The notes beneath the pieces were generated by a model. It was not told the DNA's origin. It was given only the letters and a program-made list of their open reading frames with translations, and made no database searches. DNA of 64,000 nucleotides from Massilia rubra (GTDB taxonomy: Bacteria > Pseudomonadota > Gammaproteobacteria > Burkholderiales > Burkholderiaceae_D): contig NZ_VUYU01000014.1 in the NCBI RefSeq assembly GCF_011682065.1, positions 1 to 64,000 on the forward strand, given 5' to 3'. The position numbers were made by a program, and so were the translations under genes. Position 1 is the stretch's first letter; each line of letters starts with the position of its first letter. Shown here piece by piece: positions 38,507 to 46,848 of this stretch.

Positions 38507-39391
38507 ATGACGAACTTCGTTCACAATCTGGAATTACATAAATACCCGTCCACGCGCCACCTGGAAGGCTCGCAGCTGCAACAGGGCGACGACGGTTTCG
38601 ACAAACCGAACAAGCGCAACGATCCGCGCGCGGCCTACGCCTCGCTGGCCGGCCGTTACATCGTGGTCGAAGAAAAACTCGACGGCGCGAATGCGGGCCT
38701 GAGCTTTTCCGAAGGCGCCGAACTGCTGCTGCAAAGCCGTGGCCATTACCTGGCCGGCGGTGGGCGCGAGCGCCAGTTCAGCATCTTCAAGCGCTGGGCC
38801 GCCGCCCACGAAAGCGCATTGATCGAACGCCTGGGCGACCGCCATGTGATGTACGGCGAGTGGATGGGCAAGAAGCACAGCGTCTTCTACAACCACTTGC
38901 CGCATCTGTTCTGCGAGTTCGACATCTACGACCGCGATAAACAGGTGTTCCTGTCCACCGCCGCGCGCGCAGCCCTGCTGGGCGAGGCGCCGGTGCTGCC
39001 GGTGCCGGTGCTGTACGCGGGCATCGCACCGCCACGGCTGGCCGACCTGACAGCGTTGATCCGCTTTTCGCTGGCCAAGACCGAGCGCTGGCGCCACGAC
39101 TTCGAAGCGACGGTCGAACGCGAAGGCCTGGACCTGGCCAAATGCTGGACCCAGGCCGACAAGTCCGACCTGGCCGAGGGCCTGTACATCAAGGTCGAAG
39201 AAGACGGCGTGGTCGCGGCGCGCTACAAATGGGTGCGCAGCGACTTCGTGCAGGCCATCCTGGACTCGAAGATGCACCACTCGCAGCAGCCCTACGTGCC
39301 GAACCAGCTGGCGCCCGGGGTCGATATCTACGCACCGCGCCTGAGCACGACATGGGAAGACCTGGGCCTGGTCACCGAAGGAGCCAAATGA
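38507..39391 (+). CDS. Rnl2-type ATP-dependent RNA ligase
   Basis: The 294-residue protein carries nucleotidyltransferase motifs in order: motif I EEKLDGANAGLSF (Lys that takes AMP, near residue 60), motif III HVMYGEWMG, motif IIIa HLFCEFDIYD, motif IV EGLYIKVEEDG and motif V ARYKWVRSDF. This is the T4 Rnl2/RNA_ligase family, which seals 3'-OH/5'-PO4 RNA breaks. ATG 38507 has GGAG 7 bases upstream. Its stop overlaps the HD-Pnk start (ATGA), so sealing and end-healing enzymes are translationally coupled. Confidence 0.88.
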   Translation: MTNFVHNLELHKYPSTRHLEGSQLQQGDDGFDKPNKRNDPRAAYASLAGRYIVVEEKLDGANAGLSFSEGAELLLQSRGHYLAGGGRERQFSIFKRWAAAHESALIERLGDRHVMYGEWMGKKHSVFYNHLPHLFCEFDIYDRDKQVFLSTAARAALLGEAPVLPVPVLYAGIAPPRLADLTALIRFSLAKTERWRHDFEATVEREGLDLAKCWTQADKSDLAEGLYIKVEEDGVVAARYKWVRSDFVQAILDSKMHHSQQPYVPNQLAPGVDIYAPRLSTTWEDLGLVTEGAK

Positions 39392-40533
39392 TGGACAAAC
39401 TGACTTACAAAGCCATGGCCGCGCACGTGCCGGCGCCCGGCCAGGCGCCCGACTGGGCCTGGTTCCTGCACGCGATCCCCGAGCTGGCCTTGCTGGCATC
39501 GACGCCGCAGGACCCGTATTACCATGCCGAAGGCGACGTCTGGATTCACACGCGCATGGTGGTCGAGGCCCTGATGCGCGGTGGCGACTACATCGACGGC
39601 AGCGCCGAGGAACGCTTCATCCTGTTCTATGCGGCGCTGCTGCACGATATCGCCAAGCCGGCCACCACGGTGATCGATCCGGAGAGCGGGCGCATCGGCC
39701 AGCCGGGCCACTCGAAACGCGGCGCCATCGATGCGCGCATCCTGTGCTGGCATGCGGGAGTGCCGTTTGCGCTGCGCGAGCACATTTGCCGCATCATCAC
39801 CGTGCACCAGTTGCCGTTTTTTGCGCTCGGCGGGAACAAGAACGGCCAGTCGGCCGAATTCCTGATCCGCAAGCTGTCGCACGAACTGGACCTGCGCCTG
39901 CTGTCGGCGATGGCGCAGGCCGACATGGAAGGGCGCTGGTACGAGAAAAAGGACGACTGCCTGGTCGATATCGCGCTGTTTCGCGAGATGGCGCGCGACG
40001 AAGGCTGCTACGGCACGCCGAAGGCGTTCGCCGATGCCCACACGCGCCTGTCGTACATGCGCGGGGCCGGCATTGCGCCCGATTTCGTGCATCACCAGAA
40101 CCCCGGCTCGCGCGTGACGGTCATGTCTGGCTTGCCGGCGTCGGGCAAGAACCATTGGGTGGCGGCCAACCGGGCGCGTTTGCCGGTGGTGTCGATCGAC
40201 GACGCGCGCGAAGAACTGGGGCTGCGCCACGGGGCCAACGAAGGCGCGGTGGCGCATCGCGCGGTCGATTTCGCCAAGGAGATGCTGCGCGAAAAAGCGC
40301 CGTTCGTCTGGAACACCACGCATTTGAGCGCGCAGATGCGCAAGAAGACGCTCGACCTGCTGTATGCCTACGACGCCGAGGTCGAACTGGTGTACCTGGA
40401 GCAGCCGCCGCAGGTCATCTTCAAGCGCAATAACCAGCGCGACACCAGCCTGCCGAACAAGGCGATCGAGCGCATGCTGTTCAAGTGGGAGGTGCCGCTG
40501 CCGACCGAGGCGCATGCGGTAAGTTACTTATGA
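39388..40533 (+). CDS. HD-Pnk: HD-domain phosphoesterase fused to polynucleotide 5'-kinase
   Basis: The 381-residue protein has an N-terminal HD domain (WIHTRMVVEAL, then YAALLHDIAKPATTV and the later H of GQPGHSKRGA) and a C-terminal P-loop kinase (VTVMSGLPASGKNHWVAAN near residue 250; VVSIDDAREEL; FVWNTTHLSAQMRKKTLDLL). This architecture is that of HD-Pnk from Runella, shown by others to remove 2',3'-cyclic phosphate/3'-phosphate and phosphorylate 5'-OH ends. Those are exactly the ends left by RNA endonucleases and needed by the upstream ligase. Starts at 39388 or 39391 are equivalent. Confidence 0.88.
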   Translation: MMDKLTYKAMAAHVPAPGQAPDWAWFLHAIPELALLASTPQDPYYHAEGDVWIHTRMVVEALMRGGDYIDGSAEERFILFYAALLHDIAKPATTVIDPESGRIGQPGHSKRGAIDARILCWHAGVPFALREHICRIITVHQLPFFALGGNKNGQSAEFLIRKLSHELDLRLLSAMAQADMEGRWYEKKDDCLVDIALFREMARDEGCYGTPKAFADAHTRLSYMRGAGIAPDFVHHQNPGSRVTVMSGLPASGKNHWVAANRARLPVVSIDDAREELGLRHGANEGAVAHRAVDFAKEMLREKAPFVWNTTHLSAQMRKKTLDLLYAYDAEVELVYLEQPPQVIFKRNNQRDTSLPNKAIERMLFKWEVPLPTEAHAVSYL

Positions 40534-40979
40534 CGGAGCTATCGACGCTGCCGATCAAGATGAGGAACCAGCCACCCAGGCATGGCTGGATGGGTGTGAC
40601 CCTGACGCTGGGGGCGCAGGTGGTGGAGATCGACGCGTCGGACGTGCCGAACAATCCGGTCGCCGACCTGCTCGACGCGCTTGACCTGGCCGCGCATGGA
40701 CTGCCGTCGCGGGTATGGTGGCACCTGGAGCCGGACGGCTACTTCATGTACTTCATCCCGGATGGGGATCAGGTCCATTTCAGGATCGACTTCGCCCCCG
40801 ACAGCGAAGCTGCGCGGGCGCACACGGTCGCACAGGGGACGGGCAGCCGCGCGCATGTGCTGTTGCCGTTCTGGCGCTTTGTGCGCAATTTCCAGGCGGG
40901 CGCGTACACGGAGCCGCACTGGCCCCCCACCGATTTTTCCCGCATCGATGTCGTCGAGGCCAGGATCAAGCAGGCTTGA
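40530..40979 (+). CDS. Third gene of the RNA repair operon, unknown
   Basis: The ATG at 40530 overlaps the HD-Pnk stop (ATGA). The 149-residue product (start MTELSTLPIKMRN) has strands such as WMGVTLTLGAQVVEIDASDV and YFMYFIPDGDQVHFRIDF, suggesting a compact beta-rich fold; no family recognised. Its stop is at 40977-40979, and the convergent 790-codon gene's stop begins at the next base. Tight coupling implies a role with the ligase and HD-Pnk, for example substrate recognition. Confidence 0.7.
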   Translation: MTELSTLPIKMRNQPPRHGWMGVTLTLGAQVVEIDASDVPNNPVADLLDALDLAAHGLPSRVWWHLEPDGYFMYFIPDGDQVHFRIDFAPDSEAARAHTVAQGTGSRAHVLLPFWRFVRNFQAGAYTEPHWPPTDFSRIDVVEARIKQA

Positions 40980-43352
40980 TTACGCCACCGCCATCCAGTG
41001 CGGCCCTTTCGCGTACGCCAGCAATCTGCGCGCACCGCTGGCCAGGCTGGCGGGATCGTCCAGCGACCGGCCGGCCGCCGCCAGTTCCAGTCCGGCCAGC
41101 GCGGGGGCGAGGCGCTGGCGCAGGCGCGGCGACTCCTGCGCCAGGTGCGAATGCGCCCACGCGATAAAGTCGGCGTGCGTGGCGGCCGCTGTCATCGACA
41201 GGAAAAACACCATCTGGCGCCATGCGTACGCGGCGTTCCTGATCGCGCGCGGGTCGCCCGGCCAGGCGTTCAGCGCATTGTGCTGGTTCCGGCAAATCCA
41301 CGTAAAGCATTGCTGGGCCATGCGCTCGTAGTGCGCTTGCAGTTCACCATCGAGATCGAGCCTGGCGACCAGCGCGGCCAGGTTGTGCGTGGTGAGGATC
41401 TGCTGCTGCTCGATGACCATGGCATTGTTGATGACGGTTCCGAAGCCGCTGCGGACACCGGCGCGCGCTTCGCACAGGCCGGTCAGGCCGTCAGCGTTGG
41501 CCCGCGTTGCGGCGCTGCCGTCGCGGCGTTGCGCCAGCTCGCGCAACTGCGCGCGCACTGCGGCGTCGATGCCGTAATAGTGGCAGTACAGGCTGTCGTC
41601 GAGCATGGCGCTCGCGTGCGCCGCCACGTTGGCGAACTTGTGCCCGAACGTGCCCATGAAAATATCGGCGGCCAGTTCCTCCACCAGCGGCAAGTCCAGC
41701 CCCGCATTGTCGGCCAGGGTGTTCAGTTCCTGTATCAGCGGGTTGGGGATGGCGGTCTGCGGGAACGAGGTCAGTGCCAGCAGCGCGAGTTCGTCGAGCG
41801 TGCGGCGCGCCAGCGTACGCGGCGCCACGTCTTGCTGGCGCTGTGCGTTGACGGCGGCAACCCACGGCAATTCACCTATCCGCACCTGGCTTTGCAGGTT
41901 TTGCAGCAGCAGCGAACGGCGGCGCCGGAAAGCCTGGTACAAGGCGCCGTACAACTGCTTGAGCGACGGTTCCGCGAGCGCCGCGCCATTGATGGCGGCG
42001 CTCAGTTGCGGCAGCACGCCGGCCAGCACTTCGGCGGACCCGATGACGCCGCGTTCGACCAGCACGGGTACGCTCTCGATGCTGCATCGGTCGAGCTTGG
42101 CCAGCAAGACGGCGGGGATCGGCGCGCCGGCATCTTCGCCCAGGCTGGCCGCTTCGGCGACGGTGACCGGTACGCCCAGCGGCGCCGGGTCGTCCAGGCC
42201 GCCGTCCTGCGCAACGGCACGCAGGCGCTCGGCCAGTACGCCGGCGAGCAGGTGATACGGCGCCGCCGCAACTTGCCTGGCCTGTGCGCTACGCAGCGCC
42301 GCCAGTTGCGCCGATCCGGGCAAGCCTCGTTTGCTGATGTAGCGGCCCAGGATCAGGCGGATGCGGCCGACATCGCGCCCGCTCAGCGCGGCCGGTTCGG
42401 TCACGCACAGGTGCAGGTAGCCGCACAGCTCGGCCAAGCTGTCGTCCTTGCGCGCTGCGACGGCGTTTGCTTGCCATTCGCGCAGCAGCGCTTCGCCGCG
42501 TTCGCGCCAACCGGCAGGGTAGAGGCGGCACGGCCAGCCGCCGGCGATGCGGAATTTCCCGCTTGCCGGATCGCGCCATGCGCCGTCGGCGCCGATATCG
42601 ATGGACGGTGGCGCGCCTTCGACGCTGTCGAGGAACAGCCGCAGCACGCGGTCGTACAGCGGCAGGCGCAGGCGCACGGCGGCGCGCTGCGCCAGGATGC
42701 GCTGGTTGCCGTCGCCCTGGCGTTTTTGCAGGGCGCTCACCGCGGCGCTCACAGGCGCCAGGAAAACGCGTTCGCCGAAGCGGCGCGGCTGCGCAGCCGG
42801 CACCGGATAGAAGCGCAGCCGGTCGAACCACGGCGCGATCGCGTCAAGCACCTCGCGCGCCTGCTCAAGCTTGCCGTGCCGCGTGAGCCAGGCGACCACC
42901 AGCAGCGCGCCTTCTTCCGGGACGTTGATCTCGTAGCAGCCCGAGTCGAGCAGGGCATACAGGCTCGCCAGTCCTTCGTCGGTCAGCAGGCGCGCGTTGA
43001 GCCAGCGGCGCGCGGCGGGAGCTGGCGCCATGCCGGCCGCGGCAAGCGTGGCCAGTTCATGGCCCTGCAGGGGGCCGCCGGCCTTGAAGTCGCCTGTCGC
43101 AAAGCCGCCCTTGACGACGTCGGGCGTCACCCAGGCCGGCGCGCCGTCGAGCGGCGTGCGCGAGCCGATCGCGATCGCTCCCGTGAACATCCCAACCATG
43201 ACCTGTTCCCATTGCCGCGCCTTGGTCGCGCCGTTGGCGCGCACGTGCGGGTCGGGATGGTCGCTGACGGCGCGCAAGGCGGCAGCCAGTTGCAAAGTAG
43301 CATAGCCGGGCGCAATGCGGATCCGGCCGGCGCCGGAATCGTCGTTATCCAC
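40980..43352 (-). CDS. 790-residue helical protein of unknown function next to tRNAs
   Basis: The start is GTG at 43352, 24 bases after the CCA end of the tRNA at 43377-43451. The product is mostly helical with many Leu/Ala-rich repeats (for example LRLPLYDRVLRLFLDSVEG, then AAAPYHLLAGVLAERLRAVA), compatible with an ARM/HEAT-like scaffold, and shows no nuclease, kinase or ligase motif I recognise. No signal peptide or membrane helix. It ends flush against the RNA repair operon and lies in line with the tRNAs, domain-IV protein and EF-G on the same strand, which implies a shared role. Confidence 0.75.
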   Translation of the reverse strand: MDNDDSGAGRIRIAPGYATLQLAAALRAVSDHPDPHVRANGATKARQWEQVMVGMFTGAIAIGSRTPLDGAPAWVTPDVVKGGFATGDFKAGGPLQGHELATLAAAGMAPAPAARRWLNARLLTDEGLASLYALLDSGCYEINVPEEGALLVVAWLTRHGKLEQAREVLDAIAPWFDRLRFYPVPAAQPRRFGERVFLAPVSAAVSALQKRQGDGNQRILAQRAAVRLRLPLYDRVLRLFLDSVEGAPPSIDIGADGAWRDPASGKFRIAGGWPCRLYPAGWRERGEALLREWQANAVAARKDDSLAELCGYLHLCVTEPAALSGRDVGRIRLILGRYISKRGLPGSAQLAALRSAQARQVAAAPYHLLAGVLAERLRAVAQDGGLDDPAPLGVPVTVAEAASLGEDAGAPIPAVLLAKLDRCSIESVPVLVERGVIGSAEVLAGVLPQLSAAINGAALAEPSLKQLYGALYQAFRRRRSLLLQNLQSQVRIGELPWVAAVNAQRQQDVAPRTLARRTLDELALLALTSFPQTAIPNPLIQELNTLADNAGLDLPLVEELAADIFMGTFGHKFANVAAHASAMLDDSLYCHYYGIDAAVRAQLRELAQRRDGSAATRANADGLTGLCEARAGVRSGFGTVINNAMVIEQQQILTTHNLAALVARLDLDGELQAHYERMAQQCFTWICRNQHNALNAWPGDPRAIRNAAYAWRQMVFFLSMTAAATHADFIAWAHSHLAQESPRLRQRLAPALAGLELAAAGRSLDDPASLASGARRLLAYAKGPHWMAVA

Positions 43353-43376
43353 GTGGTATCCGATGAAATAAAGTGT

Positions 43377-43451
43377 TGGGTCCGGAAGCTGGAATCGAAC
43401 CAGCGCCTACTCAGACCGGAGCCAAGTGCTCTGCCATTGAGCTATTCCGGA
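43377..43451 (-). tRNA. tRNA with anticodon CCG (Arg codon CGG), non-standard identity
   Basis: A full cloverleaf is drawn by eye: acceptor TCCGGAA/TTCCGGA, D stem GCTC/GAGC with a 7-base loop, anticodon stem CTTGG/CTGAG (two G-U pairs) with loop CTCCGGT, T arm GCTGG TTCGATT CCAGC, and an encoded CCA. The anticodon at 43417-43419 reads CCG. The discriminator base is C73 and the first pair is U1-A72, unlike usual Arg tRNAs. The acceptor identity is therefore uncertain. The gene lies 24 bases before the 790-codon gene. Confidence 0.8.
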
Positions 43452-43480
43452 ATTGTTTTTGCATGGACGCGGCGCCCAGC

Positions 43481-43540
43481 AGCATTGAGTAGAATCAATG
43501 CTCAGGCGATAACCTTAACATTATCGGTAACATAGTTCAA
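43481..43540 (-). promoter_or_regulatory. Promoter-like site and hairpin upstream of the CCG tRNA
   Basis: On the minus strand TTGAAC (43540-43535), a 17-base spacer and TAAGGT (43517-43512) form a plausible promoter. Just downstream a perfect 8-bp inverted repeat AGCATTGA/TCAATGCT (43502-43481) with a 6-base loop precedes the tRNA by 29 bases. The hairpin could be an operator or processing signal. The same set is present at the other copy. Confidence 0.45.
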
Positions 43541-43559
43541 TCTAATTTGACACACCGCC

Positions 43560-43760
43560 TTACGCATCGCCCAAAGCAAGCGGCATATACAGTCCTGCGG
43601 CGCGCAGCGCCTCGCGGTGCACGTGGTCTGGAGCTGCACGCTGCGTCCACCGTTGCCGCGCCTTGATCGCGCCGTTGGCGCGCAAGGCAGCCGCCAGTTG
43701 CAAAGTAGCATAGCCGGGCGCAATGCGGATCCGGCCGGCGCCGGAATCGTCGTTATCCAC
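43560..43760 (-). pseudogene. Fused relic: start of the 790-residue gene joined to the domain-IV gene tail
   Basis: The 66-codon frame begins exactly like the 790-residue protein (GTG DNDDSGAGRIRIAPGYATL) and ends like the domain-IV protein (REALRAAGLY, then PLALGDA and stop). It is the by-product of the tandem duplication, since the joint of the two units leaves one truncated copy of each gene. Whether it is translated is unknown; it is most likely a relic separating the two tRNAs. Confidence 0.75.
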
Positions 43761-43784
43761 GTGGTATCCGATGAAATGAAGTCT

Positions 43785-43859
43785 TGGGTCCGGAAGCTGG
43801 AATCGAACCAGCGCCCACTCAGGTAAGAGCCAAGTGCTCTGCCATTGAGCTATTCCGGA
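43785..43859 (-). tRNA. tRNA with anticodon CTT (Lys codon AAG), non-standard identity
   Basis: It is the same body as the tRNA at 43377-43451 (identical acceptor stem, D arm, T arm, anticodon stem, C73 and encoded CCA). The anticodon loop is CTCTTAC, giving anticodon CTT at 43825-43827; one further change lies in the variable loop. Standard Lys tRNAs carry A73 and a different acceptor stem, so charging with lysine is doubtful. The gene lies between the domain-IV gene and the fused relic. Confidence 0.8.
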
Positions 43860-43888
43860 ATTGTTTTTGCATGGACGCGGCGCCCAGC

Positions 43889-43948
43889 AGCATTGAGTAG
43901 AATCAATGCTCAGGCGATAACCTTAACAGTATCGGTAACATAGTTCAA
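43889..43948 (-). promoter_or_regulatory. Promoter-like site and hairpin upstream of the CTT tRNA
   Basis: This duplicates the arrangement at 43481-43540: TTGAAC (43948-43943), 17-base spacer, TAAGGT (43925-43920), then the AGCATTGA/TCAATGCT hairpin (43910-43889). It overlaps the space just after the domain-IV gene stop. Conservation in both copies supports function. Confidence 0.45.
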
Positions 43949-43967
43949 TCTAATTTGACACACCGCC

Positions 43968-44390
43968 TTACGCATCGCCCAAAGCAAGCGGCGTATACAG
44001 TCCCGCCGCACGCAGCGCCTCGCGCATGGCCATGACGGTGGCCATTTGGTAGCAACTCACTTTGGAATCGGTTTCGTGATAAGCGCCGTTCACCACCCGG
44101 ATGCGGCAGCCGCTCAGATAGTCGCCGTCGAACGCTTCCTCCGCCATGACATACTTGATACTGCTGATCACGGCGTCAATGAAGCGGATGGGAATTTGCG
44201 CATCCGTCACTTCCCAACTGAGCGTGCAAGGCGAATACCACGATGTGGCCGGTTCGAGAATCAGTTCGATCACGCCGCAACGGCCGGGCGGCCCTTGCTG
44301 GCGGATGTACACCCCTTTGCCGGTACATGAGGCAGGGAGCGTGACGCCACGTCCACTACCGGTCACTAAGGCTATTTCCATCATCATCAT
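43968..44390 (-). CDS. Stand-alone EF-G domain IV-like protein
   Basis: The 140-residue product lines up with domain IV of EF-G: IRQQGPPGRCGVIELILEP (as in the GGxGQYG..V strand), IPIRFIDAVISSIKYVM (as in IPAV.KGI), LSGCRIRVVNGAYHETDS (as in VTLHDGSYHDVDSS) and a final helix MATVMAMREALRAAG. The tip His and Asp are kept. In EF-G this domain mimics a tRNA anticodon arm and enters the A site. No GTPase part is present. Four ATGs follow GGGGAG directly; the fourth (44381) is best spaced. It lies 71 bases after the EF-G paralogue. Confidence 0.75.
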   Translation of the reverse strand: MMMMEIALVTGSGRGVTLPASCTGKGVYIRQQGPPGRCGVIELILEPATSWYSPCTLSWEVTDAQIPIRFIDAVISSIKYVMAEEAFDGDYLSGCRIRVVNGAYHETDSKVSCYQMATVMAMREALRAAGLYTPLALGDA

Positions 44391-44411
44391 CTCCCCAAAT
44401 TGGACAAGCCG

Positions 44412-44440
44412 AAAAAGGGCCGGAAATCGCTTTCCGGCCC
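44412..44440 (-). terminator. Intrinsic terminator between EF-G and the domain-IV gene
   Basis: On the minus strand GGGCCGGAAA and TTTCCGGCCC form a perfect 10-bp stem with a 4-base loop, followed by five T. It begins 22 bases after the EF-G stop codon and stops only 22 bases before the first ATG of the domain-IV gene. The downstream gene would need read-through or its own promoter. Confidence 0.8.
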
Positions 44441-44461
44441 CGGACTTACTTTACAACATGA

Positions 44462-46504
44462 TTACGCAGCCATCGCCTCGGTGCGGGGCTGCATGCACGG
44501 CGCGTGCCTTGCATACACCGCGCTGGCAAACGCACGTCCTTGCGAGAGCGAGCGCAAACTGGTCGTGTGACCGAACAGCCTGGCCAGTGGCACGTCGGCA
44601 ACGACTTCCACCCGGCCGGTCTGCTCTTCGATGCCGAGCACCTTGCCGCCACGGCGCTGCAGGTCGCCGATGACATCGCCCGCATTGACTGCCGGCGCAT
44701 CGACGCTGACCGTCATGACCGGTTCCAGCATCAGCGGATGCGCTCGCTTGAGCCCGGCCAGCGTGCCTTCCTTGGCCGCGACCATGAACGCCATGTCGTT
44801 GCTGTCGACCGTGTGGTAGTCGCCATCGAGCAGGGTCACCTTGACGCCCGTCACCGGGTAGCCGAGAGGACCTTGCGCCAGCGCATGCCGCACACCTTTT
44901 TCGATGGCGGGAATGAAGTTCGCAGGCACCACACCGCCCTTGATCGCATTCTCGAAGGCAAACACGCCCTTGAATGGCTCCACCCGCAACACGACCCGCG
45001 CATACTGTCCGCTGCCGCCGTTTTGCTTCGACACTTTGCCTTCCAGTTCCACCGCCGGCCCGGCGATGGTTTCGCGGTAGGCAACCTGGGGCGCACCGAC
45101 CGTTACTTCCACGCCGGTTTCGCGGCGCACACGTTCCAGCACCACGTCCAGGTGCAGCTCGCCCATGCCCCACAGCACTGTTTCACCGCTGAGCGGATCG
45201 CTTTCCAGGCGCAAGGACGGATCCTCGCGGCGGAAGCGGTCGAGCGCGGCCAGCATCTTGCCACGGTCGCCACCCTTGCCGGGCTCGATCGCCAGCGCCA
45301 CCACCGGTTCGCCGGCGTGGATGGTTTCGAGCACCAGCGGCGTCGCCCTGGTCGAGAGCGTGTGCCCGGTCAGCGCCTCTTTCAGGCCGGCGATGGCGAT
45401 GATGCTGCCAGCCTCGGCCTGGGCCACGGCGGTGCGGCGGTCCGCATGGATCACATACAGGCGACCGATGCGCACGCTCGCGCCGAGCGAGGCGTTCCAC
45501 ACCACGTCGCCTTCGCGCAGGGTGCCGCCGTACAAGCGCACATACGACAGCGAACCGTGCTCGTCGTGCACCACCTTGAACACCAGCGCCGCCAATGGAT
45601 CGGCGTCGCCGGTGCCGACGGTGACCTTGGCATCGTCCAGGCGCGCCACGGGAGCGGCGCGCTCGTCGGGCGAGGGCAGCCAGTCGACGACAGCGTCGAG
45701 CAGCGGCTCGATGCCGGCGTTGCGGTAGGCCGAACCGGCCAGCACCGGCAGCGCGCGCCGTGCCAGGGTCATGGCGCGCAGACCGGCCCGCACATCCGCC
45801 GGCGACAGGGTGTCATCGGCCAGGAAGGCGAGCGTGAGCGCGTCGCTGGCGTCGGCCGCCACCGCCGCCGCGTGGGCGTAGGCTGCCGCCGCCTGTGCTT
45901 GCAGCCGCACGGGCAGGGGTGTTGCGCTCATCAGGCCGGCCGCATCCCATGCCAGGAAACGCTGGCCGAGCACGTCGATGACGCCTTCGAAGGCGTCGCC
46001 GGCGCCGACCGGAATGGTCAGGGGCACGGCCAGCGCGTTCAGGCGCGCGCCGATCTGGGCGACCACGCGGCCGAAATCGGCGCCGGCGCGGTCCATCTTG
46101 TTGATGAACACGATGGTCGGCACGCCGTGCTTTTGCGCCTGGCGCCAGACGGTTTCGGTCTGGGGCTGGATGCCGGCCACGCCGCACAGCACCGTCACGG
46201 CGCCGTCGAGCACGCGCAGCGAACGTTCGACTTCGATGGCGAAGTCGATGTGGCCCGGCGTGTCGATCAGGGTGAAGGCGTGCTTGTTCCAGAAGGCGCG
46301 GGTGGCGGCGGCGCCGATGGTGATGCCGCGTTCTTTTTCCAGGTCCATGCTGTCCATGGTGGCGGTGCCCTCATGGACTTCGCCGGCGCGGTGGATCTCG
46401 CCGGTTTTGAGGAGGATGCGTTCGGACAGGGTGGTTTTGCCAGCGTCGATGTGGGCAATGATACCGAAGTTGCGCGTGTTGGCGCGAAGGACTGTCGCAG
46501 TCAT
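44462..46504 (-). CDS. Divergent EF-G paralogue
   Basis: The 680-residue protein has the five-domain EF-G layout: G1 [10 protein letters not shown]2 [12 protein letters not shown]3 DTPGHIDF, G4 NKMD and G5 GSAYRN; domain III ([17 protein letters not shown]); domain IV ([35 protein letters not shown], tip His kept); and domain V ([20 protein letters not shown]). It is shorter and more diverged than the main EF-G and is not in a str operon. ATG 46504 gives the family N-terminus; an upstream ATG (46570) has a better site (AGGGTGG) and adds 22 residues. Confidence 0.88.
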
Positions 46505-46584
46505 GATGGTGCTTTCTAAACATAGCGGGCGGTCGTAGATTGTCTGTGAGACAAGCGCCGCGGGAGCCATGCGACCACCCTTGT

Positions 46585-46623
46585 TCAGTGATCCCGCGCG
46601 CGTTCTTCGTCGGCTGACTTCAT
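46585..46623 (-). CDS. Twelve-codon ORF in the EF-G leader
   Basis: TTAGGAG stands 10 bases before an ATG at 46623 that opens a 12-codon frame ([12 protein letters not shown]) ending at TGA 46585, located after the leader terminator and before EF-G. It has the best ribosome site in the leader. It may be a control peptide or the damaged remains of a longer start. Confidence 0.35.
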
Positions 46624-46668
46624 GATATATATACTCCTAAGCAACTATTGAGTGGGGAAAAGCGACAC

Positions 46669-46701
46669 TGCAAAAACAAAAAAGGCCCGGAGTGGGCCTT
46701 T
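46669..46701 (-). terminator. Intrinsic terminator in the EF-G 5' leader (attenuator)
   Basis: On the minus strand AAAGGCCC, a 5-base loop, GGGCCTTT and a TTTGTTTTTG tract form a textbook terminator. No minus-strand gene lies upstream, so it is positioned inside the transcript leading to EF-G, about 165-200 bases before the start codon. A GGGCC stretch in the leader ORF could pair with its 5' arm to prevent it forming. Confidence 0.8.
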
Positions 46702-46737
46702 GTGATGGGTGCTCGTTACGAGCGAATCAAGGGCGCA

Positions 46738-46812
46738 CTATCGCGGCCCGGGACGTTGTGGCAACGTGCCGGGAAGGGCGAAGGTAAAAAAGAGGATGTC
46801 CATTGAGTTCAT
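46738..46812 (-). CDS. Leader peptide ORF, possibly leaderless
   Basis: A 24-codon frame (MNSMDILFFTFALPGTLPQR start, TAG at 46740-46738) begins about 8 bases after the -10 element of the upstream promoter, so its ATG would lie at or near +1. It has no ribosome site. Its last part forms a long imperfect hairpin (CCCGG.ACGTTG / CAACGT.CCGGG). A stalled or skipped ribosome here could set the fate of the downstream terminator. Confidence 0.45.
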   Translation of the reverse strand: MNSMDILFFTFALPGTLPQRPGPR

Positions 46813-46819
46813 GGCCGCA

Positions 46820-46848
46820 AGCTTAGGGTGGTATTTGTCACATGTCAA
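46820..46848 (-). promoter_or_regulatory. Promoter of the EF-G/tRNA array
   Basis: On the minus strand TTGACA (46848-46843), a 17-base spacer and TAAGCT (46825-46820) form a good -35 with a fair -10. Transcription would start at about 46812-46814. Confidence 0.6.

Follow-up and report, generated by a model that had tools for sequence, protein, structure and literature searches.

The window analysed here, a stretch of 64,000 nucleotides of Massilia rubra contig NZ_VUYU01000014.1, contains a minus-strand unit in which tRNA-like RNAs precede the gene of a large protein of unassigned family. The protein, 790 residues long and named p790, is encoded at 40980..43352 from a GTG start located 28 nt past the acceptor stem of the tRNA-like RNA directly upstream (copy 2, 43377..43451; loop CUCCGGU, anticodon CCG), and a second tRNA-like RNA (copy 1, 43785..43859; loop CUCUUAC, anticodon CUU) is found on the same strand. 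ARAGORN and Rfam both detect them, the latter with 56.8 and 61 bits, and they share a U1-A72 acceptor stem; each taken individually has a 7-nt anticodon loop, purine 37 and a TTCGA T-loop. The two RNAs belong to the halves of a 348-bp tandem duplication on the minus strand (copy 1, 43677..44024; copy 2, 43269..43616), which are 96% identical with 14 mismatches and comprise the 3' end of a gene for a stand-alone EF-G domain IV protein (EFG-IV), a spacer, the tRNA-like RNA and the 5' end of p790. A minus-strand open reading frame (ORF) at 43560..43760, in which the p790 N-terminus is fused to the EFG-IV C-terminus, is a scar of this duplication and probably not a gene. Four of the 14 mismatches are contiguous and fall on anticodon-loop positions 35-38; with 14 mismatches placed at random, such a run has a probability of about 6e-4 anywhere and of about 2e-6 at these loop positions. 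Just upstream of the tRNA-like RNA, a 28-nt element on the same strand (43460..43487) is nearly invariant in the six p790-bearing genomes of the window's genus and may be a promoter or operator.

The unit is flanked by genes with recognisable families. On the plus strand, the genes of an Rnl2-like ATP-dependent RNA ligase (38507..39391; Pfam RNA_ligase, 3.6e-33), of HD-Pnk (39388/39391..40533; an HD domain plus a P-loop kinase-like AAA_33) and of a 149-residue protein without a family match (40530..40979) are chained by ATGA overlaps, and the stop codon of the last one (40977-40979) abuts that of the p790 ORF (40980-40982). We take the first two to resemble the Rnl2-type ligase/HD-Pnk RNA-repair pair. 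The minus strand continues beyond the tRNA-like RNAs with the 140-residue EFG-IV protein (43968..44390; Pfam EFG_IV, 3.8e-10) and an EF-G paralogue (44462..46570; TIGR00484, 755 bits). An original prediction, made from the letters of this locus, had described a coupled ligase, HD-Pnk and small-protein array ending flush against a minus-strand array with an EF-G paralogue, an EFG-IV-like protein and two odd C73 tRNAs. The ORF list, ARAGORN, Rfam and Pfam/NCBIfam place all of these genes where it had put them, the coordinates bear out the flush arrangement, the scores above bear out both EF-G calls, and C73 is followed by CCA in both RNAs.

Comparison across genomes singles out the tRNA-like RNA and p790 as the constant part of the locus, a tRNA-like RNA being located just upstream of p790 on the same strand at 51 of the 51 testable loci. 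Forty-nine of these were identified by a cloverleaf parser (run on 450 nt in front of each of 52 p790 genes, score of at least 21.5) and two (L028 and L030) by ARAGORN; L017, which is cut off, stands outside the count, and the broken gene of genome G1169 outside the 52 loci. As a control, 936 stretches from similar loci were parsed, of which 108 gave some parse and none reached 20.5 (0/936). Among the first 21 loci, ARAGORN found an upstream tRNA at 14, and its looser mode combined with inspection by eye added six more. At the level of sequence, the core is a two-part unit formed by a tRNA-like leader in one to three tandem copies and a single p790 gene, occurring patchily and beside unrelated genes.

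The p790 family, about 700-800 residues in size and spread patchily over six phyla, is conserved over its whole length; ADIFMG and IEQ-Q-LT are among its motifs. Near full-length relatives with 31-45% identity occur on six plasmid records from Actinobacteria and in genomes of Acidobacteria, Rhodocyclaceae, Pseudoduganella, Achromobacter, Lysobacteraceae, Verrucomicrobia, Planctomycetes, Chloroflexi (Anaerolineae) and Nocardiopsis; Pseudoduganella violaceinigra and Nocardiopsis potens are examples of carriers that can be cultured. Each of the 19 records searched (19/19) holds a single p790 locus, with a stray fragment in addition in one plasmid. In even samples that count the centre genome, p790 is present in 8 of 195 genomes of the window's own family, in 1 of 321 of its own class (the window's genome itself) and in 4 of 396 of an actinobacterial phylum sample; groups picked for a known member gave 7/43, 6/68 and 16/150, the last including the broken gene of G1169. 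In that genome (L091-L094) p790 lies in pieces and the upstream tRNA-like RNA (UGG) is still recognised by ARAGORN, and at L067 (G657) the p790 match contains one internal TGA, which may reflect decay, error or an alignment effect. A viral origin of p790 was considered and set aside, with no confirmed match in phages or viral contigs. When the ORFs surrounding 21 loci were clustered, p790 itself came out, and otherwise clusters of 3-4 loci, largely from Achromobacter; outside the genus, no Pfam family occurs in more than four of the neighbours, which were called mechanically and of which 93 of 265 were scanned.

The 57 tRNA-like RNAs reduce to 52 distinct ones, and the alignment of 50 rows holds 48 of these plus near copies, without L028 and L030. 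In this alignment 99.7% of the cells at paired positions are paired and 14 of 21 pairs have changed on both sides, and none of 500 shuffles was as high for pairing, two-sided changes or covariation score, though the parser itself selects for pairing, so that these fold statistics lean toward structure. The count of further pair types was reached by 64 of the 500 shuffles, and slid alignments pair 29-45%. The cloverleaf is, as the alignment indicates, a covarying family of its own, and it falls into two types. Type A comprises 24 RNAs from Proteobacteria, Acidobacteria, Verrucomicrobia and Chloroflexi, plus G755 of the actinobacterial sample, with an ordinary TTCRA T-loop, U1-A72 in 22 of 24 and, in 8 of 24, a CCA encoded directly behind position 73. 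Type B comprises 28 RNAs from Actinobacteria and a planctomycete; they have C1-G72, 26 of the 28 show GGCRG where type A has TTCRA, and most of their D-loops are devoid of the usual GG. The TTCRA T-loop is missing in 28 of the 52.

The spacing between RNA and gene is tight. The p790 start codon follows the acceptor stem by 2-4 nt in 21 of 24 type B cases, the other three having 12, 14 and 23 nt; in type A the distance is 3-32 nt. A strong Shine-Dalgarno sequence precedes p790 in none of 24 type B and 5 of 25 type A cases; among mechanically called neighbours the figure is 84 of 264. A -10-like TANNNT hexamer is positioned 9-25 nt upstream of the tRNA-like RNA in 15 of 24 type B cases (shuffle mean 1.8, maximum 6); the promoter-like hexamer of type A is clearest by eye in Achromobacter. 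With a promoter-like hexamer before it and the start codon close behind it, the tRNA-like RNA has the look of a 5' leader to p790; from the hexamers we infer a joint transcript. Pairing of the anticodon loop with the p790 start region was dismissed by eye, the same gene start following both window copies with their different loops.

Two other explanations of the linkage are touched by this anatomy. Ordinary tRNA genes could have served as integration sites for a mobile gene, the linkage being incidental, which would suit the patchy distribution and the unrelated neighbourhoods; the conservation across phyla of a tRNA body that covaries as a separate family (compared among the tRNA-like RNAs), the type B spacing and the arrays of copies make this extremely improbable. 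The RNA could also be a cis-regulatory tRNA mimic, acting as an autoregulatory operator or as a processing switch in which p790 translation needs an intact, matured tRNA-like RNA. The close start codon, the lack of strong Shine-Dalgarno sequences and the abutting hexamer of type B all speak for such a role, which leaves unexplained why the loop changes between close relatives and why arrays carry different loops, and we regard it as rather improbable. Cis-regulation could coexist with the bait model introduced below.

The anticodon loop is where the tRNA-like RNAs diverge. The 46 loops of seven nucleotides contain 19 anticodons, with C32 and U33 invariant, and the most variable stretch of both types falls within 34-38, with 35-37 ranking among the most variable single positions; others of similar variability include 59 and, in type A, 44, 45 and 48. 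On a tree of 52 p790 proteins, the minimum number of changes is 36 for the string 34-38 and 28 for 34-36, compared with 17 for 44-48, 17 for 1-7, 11 for 27-31, 5 for 49-53, 2 for 54-56 and 0 for 32-33, while the single positions 35, 34, 36 and 37 require 18, 15, 12 and 12. In the six p790-bearing genomes of the window's genus the body is nearly invariant, and the loops read CUCCGGU, CUCUUAC, CUUGAGA and CUUCUAA. Five of the 51 loci carry two or three copies (the window, L079/L103, L003, L086/L110 and L069/L100), each array having at least two different loops. Position 34 is a pyrimidine in 45 of the 46 seven-nucleotide loops, an excess over the 60-70% expected of ordinary tRNA sets with a binomial probability between 2e-9 and 2e-6 when rows are taken as independent; kin loci (several Achromobacter, L009/L022, L075/L076 and the genus members) are not independent, so that both the binomial values and the change counts are rough.

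The same loops bear on whether the RNAs decode. As recoding or supply tRNAs they would be charged and used in translation for NNR codons or for adaptive mistranslation, and indeed many are scored as tRNAs by ARAGORN, both window copies also by Rfam, some type A members encode CCA, and a pyrimidine at 34 would limit reading to NNR codons. However, similar bodies carry anticodons of Arg, Lys, Ser, Leu, Trp, Pro, Gly, Thr, Glu, Ala and Gln, and one loop reads CUA (amber). Ordinary tRNAs have a purine at position 37; here a pyrimidine 37 occurs in 8 of 46 seven-nucleotide loops and six-nucleotide loops in 6 of 52 RNAs. The features of canonical decoding tRNAs (a 7-nt loop, purine 37, TTCRA and one identity per body) are not kept across the family. 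Such loops, together with the CUA anticodon and type B bodies devoid of TTCRA, are poorly suited to decoding, and a recoding role is very unlikely. Anticodons for Met, Ile and Val are absent from the 46 loops, though some of these have a pyrimidine at 34, the sample being too small to judge.

The protein itself offers few clues. The window p790 has no match at E<=0.1 in Pfam, NCBIfam, PADLOC or PHROGs, and a 20-member profile has none at E<=1 among PDB sequences. PADLOC-DB models matched 0 of 7 proteins, three of which were p790 family members, and at E<=5 the 20 members gave only weak scores of single members, including TetR_C (0.067), HEAT (0.13) and RNase D (0.017). An arrangement like type III toxin-antitoxin systems has to be weighed at this point, in which p790 would be a toxin, acting for example on tRNA or translation, that the tRNA-like RNA inactivates and that loss or cleavage of the RNA sets free. 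It would account for an RNA that immediately precedes a lone gene and probably shares its transcript, and for a patchy spread with plasmid copies and no conserved third gene. On the other hand, p790 is far larger than the usual type III endoribonuclease toxins, belongs to no recognised nuclease family apart from the one weak RNase D score, and its conservation does not track the changing loop; we consider this arrangement unlikely.

The flanking genes behave differently from the core. The original prediction had joined ligase, HD-Pnk, EF-G paralogue, EFG-IV protein, tRNAs and p790 into one cooperating translation-damage system and had proposed their co-occurrence as a check. Homologues of the ligase, HD-Pnk, the 149-residue protein, EFG-IV and EF-G are found at none of 45 p790 loci outside the genus (tblastn, 1e-3), with flanks of a few hundred bases to 10 kb per side, and the ligase/HD-Pnk pair and the EF-G paralogue adjoin the unit only within the window's genus. 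Both the ligase and HD-Pnk occur elsewhere without p790, HD-Pnk in G138, G094, G009 and ten genomes of genus g6; HD-Pnk and p790 lie on separate contigs in G072, and G067 has p790 and is outside the 46 genomes with an HD-Pnk match. Stand-alone EFG-IV proteins without p790 occur in G177 and G018, with a more distant one in G005. The original prediction had named separate halves in most genomes as the outcome that would overturn it, and this is largely what the comparison shows.

Within the genus, 6 of 17 genomes carry p790 and the surroundings are largely syntenic, running from a histidine kinase and a beta-helix protein through the ligase and HD-Pnk to a slot, followed by EF-G and Sel1 genes. 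In the six p790 genomes the slot always holds the tRNA-like RNA and p790 (6/6); it holds EFG-IV in four of them (two copies in G148) with a fragment in G170 and no EFG-IV found in the G111 slot, so that EFG-IV is a neighbour in part of the genus and outside the core unit. The 149-residue gene is present in the slot of 4/6, its protein not being found in G181 and G192; within this genus it may go together with p790. HD-Pnk and the 149-residue gene lie about 10 kb apart in G111, with other sequence between them, and the latter is still flush against p790 there (L036 8320-8769; 40530-40979 in the window). Neither the 149-residue nor the EFG-IV protein has a match in the plasmids searched. In G138, which lacks p790, both flanks including EF-G are kept and none of the middle; a different ORF of 620 residues fills the slot, where ARAGORN finds no tRNA. 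By eye alone, this ORF (L039 12192-14054) is nucleotide deaminase-like, with a C-terminal HAE...PCxxC motif. Stand-alone EFG-IV proteins in genomes without p790 were seen at L095 540-932, L096 6164-6574 and L097 5920-6282, those of L095 and L097 among small ORFs that resemble immunity-gene arrays by eye. A stand-alone EFG-IV may be an immunity or decoy protein for EF-G.

A joint system draws support from the four of six p790 genomes of the genus that hold all of its parts together, the 149-residue protein being left out of this count, and from an association in the window's own family, where a strong HD-Pnk match occurs in 6 of 7 p790 genomes and 14 of 183 others (Fisher 4e-6, a count that assumes that the p790 and HD-Pnk scans covered the same 190 genomes). 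Five of those six genomes form one genus-level clade, the window's genus, with one common insertion site. Given the 0 of 45 loci elsewhere and the persistence of the flanks without the middle in G138, the joint RNA-repair/EF-G system was rejected and is highly unlikely; we conclude that the ligase pair and EF-G are old neighbours at the insertion slot. The original prediction is therefore right in part. Two of its points are supported: the odd tRNAs and p790 make up a conserved unit, for which no name was found, and the changing loop fits its idea of anticodon damage. A single system that joins ligase/HD-Pnk, EF-G and EFG-IV to the tRNA/p790 pair is not supported.

These observations suggested what the loop may face. 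As p790 is conserved across phyla and the loop differs between sister species, the loop probably faces a changing partner other than p790, and the anticodon-directed ribonucleases of toxin and phage conflicts are the obvious changing readers of anticodon loops. We therefore favour, at a probability of about 0.38, a bait model in which p790 would hold a tRNA mimic that baits such ribonucleases, as a decoy or a cleavage sensor. A promoter abutting the tRNA-like RNA would drive a joint transcript, from which processing by RNase P and RNase Z would free the tRNA-like RNA and leave a near-leaderless p790 mRNA, at least in Actinobacteria. The protein would bind the conserved body and keep the anticodon loop exposed, so that the loop would act as a bait matched to the anticodon-directed ribonucleases, either toxins or abortive-infection effectors, threatening that lineage. 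The complex might absorb these enzymes as a decoy, or sense cleavage and trigger a p790 response, and changed or stacked anticodons would retune the bait, with the RNA repair and EF-G genes as bystanders. A bolder version, which we hold to be doubtful, is a programmable-address system, a new class of recognition by RNA and protein, in which an exchangeable five-base loop would serve as bait or guide and be varied through point changes and tandem duplications in the manner of a receptor repertoire, tRNA maturation releasing a leaderless effector mRNA.

Several observations weigh against the bait model. No catalytic or RNA-binding domain is recognisable in p790, so that its binding of the tRNA-like RNA is an assumption. 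The family was not found in phages, none of 81 pattern matches in viral contigs being confirmed, and no defence-island signal was seen in the 93 of 265 neighbours scanned outside the genus, the 25 commonest of 151 neighbour Pfam families being mostly metabolic, transport or regulatory; the exceptions among these 25 are a single nuclease domain, YhcG_C, and an AAA family of AbiEii-like kind in two cases. In type A the promoter-like hexamer occurs in 9 of 25 cases and is not significant (shuffled mean 5.4, maximum 13), and the association with HD-Pnk in the window's family counts against a bystander role. Positions 26 and 59 require 14 changes each, comparable to 34 or 36; what sets the loop apart is the stretch as a whole and the comparison of close relatives, not each single position. 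The near-absolute pyrimidine at 34 is not predicted by a simple bait, and the CUA anticodon matches no ordinary host tRNA.

The contrast between body and loop is what gives the unit its interest. A tRNA is expected to keep its anticodon, and a body recognisable across six phyla whose anticodon loop is the fastest-changing part is strange; it points toward an arms race in which the anticodon is what is read. Should the bait model hold, genomic anticodons would form a readable log of the tRNA-targeting toxins met by a lineage, and a large protein family would acquire a function open to testing. A start codon placed directly against the acceptor stem would represent a new way of coupling RNA maturation to translation.

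Several known systems share single features with the unit. The antitoxin of ToxIN-type toxin-antitoxin systems consists of tandem pseudoknot repeats and the toxin is a small endoribonuclease; the likeness is an RNA element placed immediately before a lone protein-coding gene, whereas the p790 unit has a tRNA fold and a protein of about 790 residues, and in scans with sequence models no Pfam, NCBIfam or PADLOC model for an endoribonuclease of the ToxN, AbiQ, CptN or TenpN type matches p790. The leader of E. coli thrS likewise holds a tRNA-like element, an autoregulatory operator that mimics the anticodon arm of one cognate tRNA; the p790 leader, in contrast, is a complete cloverleaf with an anticodon that differs between close relatives. 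The Rnl2 ligase/HD-Pnk pair resembles the left-hand genes of the window and differs in being a neighbour outside the conserved unit.

Another such system is the ribonucleoprotein of Ro60/Rsr (TROVE) and Y RNA (rsr-yrlBA-rtcBA), in which a protein and a noncoding RNA with a tRNA-like fold likewise come from one locus. The linked tRNA-like RNA is present in the p790 unit too, but as a full cloverleaf with a changing anticodon. A relationship of p790 to TROVE was set aside, since a scan of 20 p790 proteins at E<=5 gave no hit to TROVE (PF05731), and the window's own genome has none; TROVE occurs in 3 of 274 genomes of the own class, two of them above the cut-off, too few for a profile. No rtc gene is among the 25 commonest neighbour families. 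Hughes et al. suggest that the tRNA-like domain of YrlA may competitively inhibit an anticodon nuclease (PMC7790460). The changing anticodon suggests that the p790-linked RNA serves as bait or for recognition and is not an ordinary component of translation.

No account of the tRNA-like/p790 unit was recognised in full-text literature searches, most subscription papers and a 2016 RNA-repair survey being outside their reach. In that survey, Burroughs and Aravind reportedly described a 'novel tRNA-like molecule' with SPFH/Band-7 modules, which resembles the present case in tying a tRNA-like RNA to one protein family in prokaryotes. It is possible that their molecule is the p790-linked RNA. No Band_7 domain is found in eight window proteins, in p790 or among the 25 commonest neighbour families. 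With the reservation that the SPFH-linked molecule may be this RNA, the tRNA-like/p790 unit looks like an undescribed RNA-protein system, new in kind.

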